From positions 8,742,001-8,806,000 of the forward strand of contig NZ_CP011125.1 of assembly GCF_000737325.1 (NCBI RefSeq): a stretch of DNA of 64,000 nt. Reading direction: 5' to 3'. How positions within the stretch are numbered: the stretch's first letter is position 1; the number at the start of each line of letters is the position of its first letter. Positions 25,600 to 27,970 of this stretch are shown here, piece after piece. The position numbers and the translations under genes are program-made. Below the pieces are notes generated by a model. It did no database searches. It was not told the origin of the DNA and saw only the letters and a program-made list of their open reading frames with translations. The stretch comes from Sandaracinus amylolyticus (lineage in GTDB: Bacteria; Myxococcota_A; Polyangia; Polyangiales; Sandaracinaceae).

Positions 25600-26410
25600 T
25601 CCGACCCCGCCGGGCGCCTGCGACGCGCACGCGCACGTGATCGGCGCGTCGATGAGCGCGGCGCGCAGCTACACGCCGCCCGAGGCCACCGTCGAGTCGT
25701 ACCTCGCGATGCTCGACGCGCACCGCATCGCGCGCGGCGTGCTCGTGCAGATCAGCGTGCACGGCACCGACAACCGCGTGATGACGGACGCGGTGAGCGC
25801 CCACAGCGATCGGCTGCGCGGCATCGCAGTCGTGCACGCCGACGCGCCCGATGCGGAGCTCGCGCGCCTCGCGTCGTCGGGCGTGGTCGGGCTGCGGCTC
25901 AACACGGCGTTCGGCGGCGGCCCGAGCCTCGACGATCTCGAGCGCCTCGCGGCGCGCTGTCGCGAGCTCGACTGGCACCTCGAGCTCCTTCTCGATCATC
26001 GCGCGCTGCCCGAGCTCGCGCCGCGCCTCGAGCGACTGCCGGTGCCGTTCGTGCTCGATCACCTCGGGCACGTCCCGGTGTCGGCGGGGATCGCGCACCC
26101 CGCGGCCCAGGCGATGCTGTCGCTGCTGCGCGGAGCGCACTGCTGGGTGAAGCTCTCGGGCGCGTATCGCGTGTCCGCGACGGGCCCGCCGCATCGCGAC
26201 ACGATCCCGATCGTGCGCGCGCTCGTCGACGCGCGCGCCGATCGCCTGGTGTGGGGCAGCGACTGGCCGCACACCGCGCACGCCGGTCCGACGCCGCGGG
26301 TCGGCGCGCTGCTCGATCTGCTCCGCGAGCAGGTGCCCGACGCTGCGCAGCGCGACGCGATCCTCGTCGACAACGCCGCACGTCTCTACCGCTTCGGCGA
26401 GGGCGGGTGA
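25589..26410 (+). CDS. Amidohydrolase family protein (PDC hydrolase-like)
   Basis: A 273-residue TIM-barrel metal-dependent hydrolase of the amidohydrolase_2 group, closest in style to 2-pyrone-4,6-dicarboxylate lactonase. Metal and substrate residues are visible: CDAHAHVIG near residue 11, VQISVHGTD, DHLGH near 155, KLSGAYR near 185 and WGSDWPH near 225. It would open a lactone or hydrolyse a related ring acid. It overlaps the MFS gene by 11 bp, consistent with uptake and breakdown of the same compound. The stop codon lies five bases before the structured region upstream of the reverse transcriptase. Confidence 0.9.
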   Translation: MPADPTPPGACDAHAHVIGASMSAARSYTPPEATVESYLAMLDAHRIARGVLVQISVHGTDNRVMTDAVSAHSDRLRGIAVVHADAPDAELARLASSGVVGLRLNTAFGGGPSLDDLERLAARCRELDWHLELLLDHRALPELAPRLERLPVPFVLDHLGHVPVSAGIAHPAAQAMLSLLRGAHCWVKLSGAYRVSATGPPHRDTIPIVRALVDARADRLVWGSDWPHTAHAGPTPRVGALLDLLREQVPDAAQRDAILVDNAARLYRFGEGG

Positions 26411-26599
26411 TCGAGGTACGCTGGGCGCGATGGCGGCGGCGCGCGTCGAGCCGATCGAGGCGCACGCCTCGGTCTCCGCGAGGCTTCCTCGCGGACGCTT
26501 CGTACCTCCAGCATCGACGTCGCACGTGCCCCGGCTGCGGAACCGCAGCGACCGCACGCGCAGGACCGGAATCGTCGACGCACGCCGCCGCCCTCTCCG
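26411..26599 (+). ncRNA. Candidate retron msr-msd region upstream of the reverse transcriptase
   Basis: This 189-bp gap holds no gene but several perfect hairpins: CGAGGCG-CA-CGCCTCG (26456-26471), a 9-bp stem TCCGCGAGG-CTT-CCTCGCGGA (26475-26495) and GCTGCGG-AA-CCGCAGC (26534-26549). GAGGTACG at 26415-26422 is the exact reverse complement of CGTACCTC at 26501-26508, enclosing the first two hairpins, as the a1/a2 repeats of a retron enclose msr and msd. Retron RNAs lie directly upstream of the reverse transcriptase. The 94-nt span between these repeats is short for a retron, so the true a2 may be elsewhere. Confidence 0.42.
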
Positions 26600-27970
26600 A
26601 TGACCGAGTGGACGTTCGACGCCGACGACCTGGACGAGGACGAGGAGGACGCAGATCCGCCGCCCGGCCCAGCCGAGCTGCGCTTGGCCCGCGCGCTCGC
26701 GCTCGCGTTCCTCGGCACCGACGGACGCCGGCGCGCGATGATCGAAGCCGCGCTCGCGACGCTGCACGTGCCCGACGAGGCGCGCGCACGCGCGTGGATC
26801 GGCGCGCTCGTCGCGCTCGTGCGGCGCACCTTCGATCCGCTAAGGCGCGCGTCGCTCGACGAGCTCACGACGACGATCGCGCATGGTCGCGCGCTCGCGC
26901 GACGCGACCGCGGCGTCCACGTGGTGCGCTGGGTGGCCACGCCCGGCGAGATGCGCGCGCCGCGATGGGACGTGCCGCGGATCGACACGGTGGGCGATCT
27001 CGCGCGCTGGCTCGACGTCGAGATCGGCGAGCTCGACTGGCTCGCGGATCGGCGCGCGATGTTGGTGCGCGCGCGCGTCGGCCCATTGCATCACTACGTG
27101 CGCACGTGGGTGCCGAAGCCGAGCGGCGGCGCTCGCCTCATCGAGGCGCCGAAGGCGCGGCTCGCCGCGATCCAGCGCCGCGTGCTGCGCGAGGTCCTCG
27201 AGCGAGTCCCGATGCACGACGTCGCGCACGGCTTCCGGCGCGGGCGCTCGGTCGCCACGTTCGTCGCGCCGCACGTCGGACGTGCCGTCGTGGTGCGCGT
27301 CGACCTCGAGGACTTCTTCGCGAGCGTCACGCGCGGCCGCGTGATCGGCATCTTCCGCAGCGCGGGCTACCCGGAGGAGATCGCGCGCACGCTCGCTGCG
27401 CTCTGCACCACGCGCACGCCGGCGTCGGAGATGCGCGGCATCGAGCACGCGGTGCGCGCGCGGCTGCGCGTCCCGCACTTGCCGCAGGGCGCGCCGACGT
27501 CGCCTGCGCTCGCGAGCCTCGCGGCGTTCCGTCTGGATGCGCGCATCGAGGGCCTCGCTCGCGCGGTCGGCGCGCGATGCACGCGGTATGCGGACGACGT
27601 CGCGCTCTCGTTCGAGCGCGATCGATCCCACGGCGCGATCGATCGTGTGATCGCGCGCATCGCCGAGATCGCGCGCGAGGAGGGCTTTGGCGTCGCGTCG
27701 CACAAGACGCGCGTCATGCGCCGCGGCGCGCGCCAGTCGCTCGCCGGCGTGGTGGTGAACGAGAGGCCCGCGGTCGCGCGCGAGGAGTACGAGCGACTGC
27801 GCGCGATCCTCCATCGCGCGGCGACGCGAGGCCCGAGCCCCGACGAGCTCGGGGCGCATCGCGATCTGCGCGCTCACCTCGCAGGGCGCATCGCGTGGAT
27901 CGCCCAGTGGAGCGAGCGTCGCGGCGCGAAGCTGGCGGCCATGCTCGCCCGCATCGACTGGAGCGCGTGA
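26600..27970 (+). CDS. Retron-type reverse transcriptase
   Basis: A 456-residue reverse transcriptase. Motifs in order: WVPKPSGGARLIEAPK (about 170-185), a retron domain-X-like HGFRRGRSVATFVAPHVG, catalytic VDLEDFFASV (234-243), LPQGAPTSPALASL (about 294-307), YADDVALSF (about 330-338), and RQSLAGVVVN (about 377-386), which corresponds to the retron VTG region but reads LAG. The Asn of the usual NAxxH motif is replaced by Val. The first 165 residues are an extension like that of myxobacterial retron enzymes. No group II maturase, endonuclease or DGR partner is nearby. The start has no strong ribosome site. Confidence 0.88.
   Translation: MTEWTFDADDLDEDEEDADPPPGPAELRLARALALAFLGTDGRRRAMIEAALATLHVPDEARARAWIGALVALVRRTFDPLRRASLDELTTTIAHGRALARRDRGVHVVRWVATPGEMRAPRWDVPRIDTVGDLARWLDVEIGELDWLADRRAMLVRARVGPLHHYVRTWVPKPSGGARLIEAPKARLAAIQRRVLREVLERVPMHDVAHGFRRGRSVATFVAPHVGRAVVVRVDLEDFFASVTRGRVIGIFRSAGYPEEIARTLAALCTTRTPASEMRGIEHAVRARLRVPHLPQGAPTSPALASLAAFRLDARIEGLARAVGARCTRYADDVALSFERDRSHGAIDRVIARIAEIAREEGFGVASHKTRVMRRGARQSLAGVVVNERPAVAREEYERLRAILHRAATRGPSPDELGAHRDLRAHLAGRIAWIAQWSERRGAKLAAMLARIDWSA

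Follow-up and report, generated by a model that had tools for sequence, protein, structure and literature searches.

A 64,000-nt stretch of Sandaracinus amylolyticus DNA (contig NZ_CP011125.1; hereafter the window, to whose positions all coordinates refer) carries a reverse transcriptase (RT) gene and, immediately in front of it, a structured region that reads as the msr-msd template RNA of a retron (Table 1). A first-pass annotation had picked out the LPQGAPTSP and YADD motifs, both of which are present in the 456-residue open reading frame (ORF) 26600-27970 (+). It had proposed a retron and suggested RT phylogeny and upstream covariance in relatives as checks. Three lines of evidence support the retron identity: RT phylogeny, the predicted fold and a covarying msr-msd located where one would be expected.

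Table 1. Features of the retron locus (positions within the window; msDNA, multicopy single-stranded DNA).
Feature	Position	Strand	Remarks
a1, 5' arm of the enclosing stem	26432..26449	+	identical in the sister species
Predicted branching (priming) guanosine	26450	+	in GAGC just 3' of a1; invariant in the 35-row alignment
msr hairpin 1	26453..26474	+	9 pairs, including one G-U
msr hairpin 2	26475..26495	+	perfect, 9 bp, 3-nt loop; most conserved hairpin of the clade (helix 3)
msd hairpin (helices 4 and 5)	26522..26562	+	imperfect repeat; variable block 26527-26556 inside
Predicted msDNA	26496..26574	-	start opposite invariant G26574, end within 26496-26521, 54-79 nt; inferred from the alignment/covariance model and PMC6868368
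a2, 3' arm of the enclosing stem	26575..26592	+	stops 7 nt before the RT start codon
Retron-lineage RT	26600..27970	+	456 aa; profiles, tree, fold
N-terminal four-helix domain, ~residues 24-100	26669..26899	+	seen in the model; searches gave neither a family nor a confident structural match

Pfam RVT_1 matches residues 171-374 of the RT (E 1.8e-20), leaving the N-terminal extension of ∼ 165 residues that the first-pass annotation had noted. The best PADLOC model is RT_other (4.1e-151, 502 bits), whose full-length match to residues 23-455 takes in the extension, followed by RT_outgroup (4.3e-142, 472 bits); both are protein profiles that carry no type number, and the sources consulted attach neither an RNA nor a function to them. 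RT_XIII (336 bits) ranks lower, as does every other retron type, and NCBIfam retron models match with scores under their cut-offs. An AlphaFold2 model built from a 63-row alignment (A4) has a mean predicted local distance difference test score (pLDDT) of 92.4, and its top 18 Foldseek matches in the PDB are all retron RTs, with Ec86 (7v9x; 26% identity) the best (E 1.0e-21). Unlike the window RT, Ec86 is a 314-residue chain without a comparable N-terminal domain, and it was solved with its effector (structure title). An RT of the group II intron, defence-associated (DRT) or diversity-generating retroelement (DGR) kind was considered and rejected: TIGR04416 scores 50 bits against a cut-off of 300 and Drt2 25 against 390, and retrons come first structurally. 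A 61-row IQ-TREE phylogeny, in which group II RTs served as outgroup and five long-branched reference RTs were left out, places the window RT within the retron lineage. Its clade (39 rows) is set off by a branch supported at 100/100 and lies outside the Mx65/Mx162 group; the root of this tree depends on a very long outgroup branch. Profiles, tree and fold thus all place the RT in the retron lineage, apart from group II intron and other RTs.

Retron RNAs are described as having an a1/a2 stem of 8-30 bases ending at a conserved G, one to three msr hairpins and one msd hairpin, with priming in a GAGC or CAGC context (PMC6868368); the features on this list are found at the locus, next to the RT. 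The first-pass annotation had listed three perfect hairpins and an 8-bp enclosing repeat. The 9-bp hairpin at 26475-26495 is indeed perfect, but the repeats over 26453-26474 and 26522-26561 are imperfect. The 8-bp repeat (26413-26420/26501-26508) is changed at 3/8 positions in the sister species (alignment A1) and has to be replaced by 26432-26449/26575-26592. This enclosing stem is paired at 17/18 positions in the window and at 18/18 in the sister species (same-genus genome G002), where the locus is syntenic and a single a2 change restores the one mismatch. Identity between the two species is 21/21 in a1, 75/77 in the msr, 18/18 in the 3' msd and 20/21 in a2. It is 11/30 in the variable block 26527-26556, the inner msd hairpin, which is paired in both with different bases. 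In this alignment a near-frozen msr and arms accompany a rewritten but paired msd, which is the pattern predicted for a template RNA.

The case for the RNA rests on such comparative evidence, not on fold energy. The region folds modestly better than shuffled sequences (z -2.31; 5/200 shuffles equally good), and the DNA fold energy of the predicted msDNA strand gives z 0.11. An Rfam scan of the window returned no match, and chance-level matches only at a relaxed threshold. At ten loci of the clade and the Mx retrons nothing rose above the gathering threshold except an unrelated RNase P RNA, whose gene (L207:4608-5003) lies ∼ 1.4 kb from the third retron of Myxococcus xanthus DSM 16526 described below.

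Judged by eye, the upstream regions of 32 homologues sharing the N-terminal extension show an enclosing stem together with a hairpin resembling CTCTCCGGGGnTACCCCGGGG in every case but L137, whose search match covers the RT part alone; at L132 the script-picked stem was wrong. From loci whose a1/a2 stem came from maximal complementarity we chose 35 rows by eye (alignment A3), leaving out L045 and the duplicate L152, L132 (wrong stem), L137 (no recognizable stem) and others held in reserve. Because the stems were found by complementarity, helix 1, and less so helix 2, is biased towards pairing; helices 3-5 are unbiased. The alignment folds with 35 pairs, 28 of them changed on both sides (compensatory). 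Cells are paired in 94.3% of cases versus 75.6% in shuffled and 39-46% in slid controls, and the covariation score is 0.494 versus 0.162 and 0.07-0.10, respectively. The pair adjoining the last pair before the priming site is G-C in 18 rows, A-U in 14 and C-G in two.

A covariance model of the RNA (R1, with rough E-values) matches the window at 26431-26593 (102.6 bits, E 2.9e-16), the next best match in the 64 kb scoring 18.4 bits. The S. amylolyticus genome holds one full copy; 39 other short matches, mostly to the GC-rich a1/msr part, look like sequence composition. R1 matches 70/71 further RT loci, five of which (L063, L097, L211, L213 and L215) repeat A3 records, and 65/66 among those repeating no A3 row. 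These held-out matches lie at E <= 0.0011 in 64 of 65 cases (L108 reaches only 0.078), and the sole held-out locus without a match is L098, where 137 nt of DNA precede the RT match. Among 36 control loci 35 gave no match, and the only one that did (L236) is placed within the clade by the tree. At L079:5520-5694, in a Solirubrobacterales metagenome-assembled genome, an 86-bit R1 match lies directly upstream of the RT on the opposite strand; the RNA block there appears to be inverted in situ, with its arms on either side, either as a true inversion or as an assembly artefact.

These comparisons bear on whether the upstream RNA instead regulates the RT gene in cis or acts as its terminator. The RT start lies 7 nt past a2, so folding could govern translation, and the fold energy by itself is just modestly unusual. 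However, the distant a1/a2 stem, the invariant CxAG at the stem end, the invariant G opposite and a conserved msr combined with a freely changing yet paired msd match the needs of a template and not those of a terminator. We therefore regard a purely regulatory RNA as highly improbable.

To find the limits of the unit, 202 clade pairs (not independent of one another) were compared in which a DNA match spans at least 95% of it and 500 nt of sequence flank it on either side. In 168 of them the match ends no more than 60 nt from a1 and from the RT stop codon; in the other 34, often close relatives, it extends further on at least one side. Since similarity in most pairs stops at a1 and the RT stop, the unit consists of RNA and RT only. 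Stop-to-stop frames of 70 aa or more in the flanks, 6124 in all, were clustered and yielded no recurring partner family. Exceptions were frames overlapping the RT, synteny within groups of close relatives and one cluster, from 11 loci, with an ABC-ATPase-like frame at scattered positions. In a set of 140 neighbour ORFs drawn from 30 loci, each PADLOC family was seen at most once at E <= 1e-10, and the most frequent Pfam family was present in four. This set (A6) is 140 of 141 chosen ORFs, one very long ORF having been dropped; they are unrelated sequences aligned only for joint scanning and were picked by third-codon-position GC (GC3) pattern and length, so that some may be spurious, and L207 contributed none. 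The first-pass remark that no obvious effector is adjacent holds clade-wide among the examined flanks. Five Pseudonocardiaceae loci (L093, L095, L096, L100 and L106) share upstream neighbours, including a PHP-domain polymerase gene that, judged by eye, resembles error-prone DnaE2.

Known retrons are typically tripartite (PMC12548924), and a linked or fused effector, by which typed defence retrons are recognized, was not found here among linked frames of at least 70 aa. A smaller or fast-evolving gene could escape this search, and the locus might be a defence retron of the tripartite kind with a toxin that is not linked to it, is very short or has diverged strongly. We consider this rather unlikely, given that similarity ends at the RT stop in most of the 202 pairs and that no neighbour family recurs in the flanks examined.

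The first-pass suggestion of a diverged group is borne out by a separate, PADLOC-untyped clade outside the Mx65/Mx162 group. Membership in that group (PADLOC type XIII) has some appeal. The phylum is the same and an N-terminal extension is shared. Mx65 (Retron-Mxa2), whose RT domain is 44% identical over residues 115-446, also has the GAGC priming context (for GAGC/CAGC, see PMC6868368) and a substituted region-X Asn. Mx162 (Retron-Mxa1) of M. xanthus is likewise chromosomal, with an extended RT 35% identical over residues 117-456. However, the tree, the PADLOC ranking and the RNA all set the window locus apart, and its N-terminal part does not align with that of either retron. The Mx65 RT sits in another clade with RT_XIII as best PADLOC model, and R1 finds no match at its locus (L205). 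Mx162 matches the type XIII model, keeps NAxxH and VTG and has a different RNA (L206, only 9.1 bits with R1), with an msd of 162 nt (PMC6868368) compared with the 54-79 nt predicted here. For the window locus neither RT_XIII as best profile, nor a tree position within the group, nor a shared RNA family was found, and we judge membership extremely improbable. Our own initial Mx65-like reading, prompted by GAGC and the lost Asn, was refuted by the Mx65 locus itself (PADLOC, R1 and tree). Seven Planctomycetota loci (L089, L105, L107, L108, L112, L113 and L121) combine weak R1 matches with protein starts somewhat like that of Mx65 (MGLFDFL-type); this subgroup is a possible link from the window clade to the Mx65 group.

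Several observations weigh against a functional retron at the locus. Its msDNA is a prediction from sequence. The RT lacks VTG, having LAG as the first-pass annotation had read correctly, and lacks the Asn and Ala of NAxxH, although these are common rather than defining features. Region X reads F221-V222-A-P-H225, with Phe in place of Asn and Val in place of Ala; the 'Val for Asn' of the earlier reading was one column off. Ser306 occupies a position that is Asn in 62/62 other clade rows, nine further residues depart from columns at least 90% conserved, and the neighbour-ORF scan revealed no defence context. Ser306 (codon 27515-27517), which follows closely on the QGAPTSP motif, is also present in the sister species.

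Such departures could mark a decaying retron, formerly active and now functionless in the genus, the more so as the N-terminal part evolves fast: its ratio of non-synonymous to synonymous substitution rates (dN/dS) is 0.51, about three times the 0.157 of the RT part (whole RT 0.24). Against decay, the ORF is kept in both species, Asp235, Asp332 and Asp333 of the catalytic site are kept, the RNA is nearly frozen and the msd changes are compensatory. The two species share 86.7% identity over the RT part of this gene, 79.2% over its N-terminal part and 83.3% over the amidohydrolase coding sequence upstream. These comparisons indicate that the RT is intact and under purifying selection, and we hold decay to be very unlikely. 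The altered motifs are ordinary within the clade. VTG occurs in 47%, Asn in 62% and Ala in 87% of retron RTs, and the region X His is reported as fully conserved (PMC4244168). In the clade the VTG position reads LAG in 14/39 rows and VTG in 9/39, and the His (His225 in the window RT) is kept in 39/39. Taken together, the evidence makes it very probable that the locus is a working retron that produces msDNA and belongs to a separate clade without effectors.

The N-terminal domain comprises helices at residues 24-38, 44-54, 60-77 and 86-94 in the full-length model; it was also modelled alone. Mean column identity is 26%; a single column is invariant, and the polar residues form no catalytic pattern. 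Pfam searches over the N-terminal domains of 54 members gave single-member matches only (best E 0.002) and no family. Fold searches with the domain gave a best E of 2.1 (Foldseek) and a best Z of 5.5 (VIA; a calcium-binding protein), the latter within the noise stated for helical models. An enzymatic role seems unlikely, and we regard the domain as a candidate adaptor or effector. Three Amycolatopsis RTs (L093, L095 and L106; 334-341 aa) lack it, a natural domain deletion; because they keep the RNA, the domain is unlikely to be required for DNA synthesis in general.

A direct search of genome contigs with the window RT alone found no relative, whereas an alignment query did. Matches below 1e-150 occur in 13/27 genomes in a Myxococcus-genus search and matches below 1e-110 in 19/317 genomes at class level. 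By record title, the 77 R1-positive loci of the named collection fall to Actinomycetota (25), Pseudomonadota (17), Planctomycetota (16), Acidobacteriota (10) and Myxococcota (5), with single records, which may be name clashes, for Verrucomicrobiota, Bdellovibrionota and Cyanobacteriota and one unplaced. On this sequence evidence the unit of RNA and RT is conserved across phyla. Mx65 is given as FNOH01000027.1 37959-39242 of M. xanthus DSM 16526 (PMC8934634). Contig 27 of genome G613 carries exactly that ORF, and contig 5 encodes an RT 44% identical to the window RT over residues 29-454, with an R1 RNA in front (102.8 bits). Contig 7 carries an RT recognized as that of Mx162. M. xanthus thus has three such loci, to the third of which the window retron is related. 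Searches of an open-access library found no report of this third copy or of the RNA family; the claim of novelty is limited to that library and to the PADLOC and Rfam copies used.

The surroundings of the window locus are of an ordinary kind. An amidohydrolase gene ends at 26410, upstream of the retron, an MFS transporter gene is also a neighbour, and PAP2, acyl-CoA oxidase and LysR genes lie farther upstream. A search aimed at an empty insertion site found the amidohydrolase in only 2/28 genomes, those of S. amylolyticus and the sister species. Elsewhere, too, the sampled sites lie mostly among housekeeping-type genes and not in defence islands; no defence context was found, and nothing here independently supports a role against phages. 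The S. amylolyticus genome (G000) contains 14 RVT_1 matches, three of them retron-type RTs. Eight further matches are strong, and the two of these that were examined are of the group II intron type and nearly identical. A further RT at 724011-724580 was missed by P0001, and two partial RVT_1 matches lie at 8290759-8291401.

We propose that the transcript folds such that the a1-a2 stem would present G26450. The RT would use the 2'-OH of this residue, start DNA opposite G26574, copy the msd hairpin and stop before msr hairpin 2. RNase H trimming, as in PMC6868368, would leave a branched msDNA of 54-79 nt, held in the RT. With no effector gene accompanying the unit, the complex of RNA and protein would act either via its own helical domain at the N-terminus or via a host protein from another locus. 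By analogy with other retrons its likeliest role would be that of a sensor of infection or DNA stress, to which we give somewhat less than even weight. To our knowledge, what the original myxobacterial retrons do has yet to be settled.

Current thinking on retrons derives from types that carry their toxin linked or fused. The clade described here consists of a strongly conserved RNA and an RT, with no linked toxin in the neighbourhoods examined. More tentatively, we speculate that it constitutes a retron type of its own, found in at least five phyla and working as RNA and RT alone, in which the four-helix domain, or the msDNA acting on a host factor, replaces the toxin. It might serve the cell in a housekeeping capacity, such as sensing DNA stress, instead of defending it against phages, and the member in M. 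xanthus, the myxobacterium in which retrons were first found, would add a third retron, hitherto unreported, to those of that species. The compact unit (∼ 1.5 kb), whose RNA family is not in the Rfam copy used, adds to the candidate DNA-producing systems. As the clade is found in workable genera (Myxococcus, Rhodococcus and Burkholderia), the question of a retron without an effector becomes directly testable.
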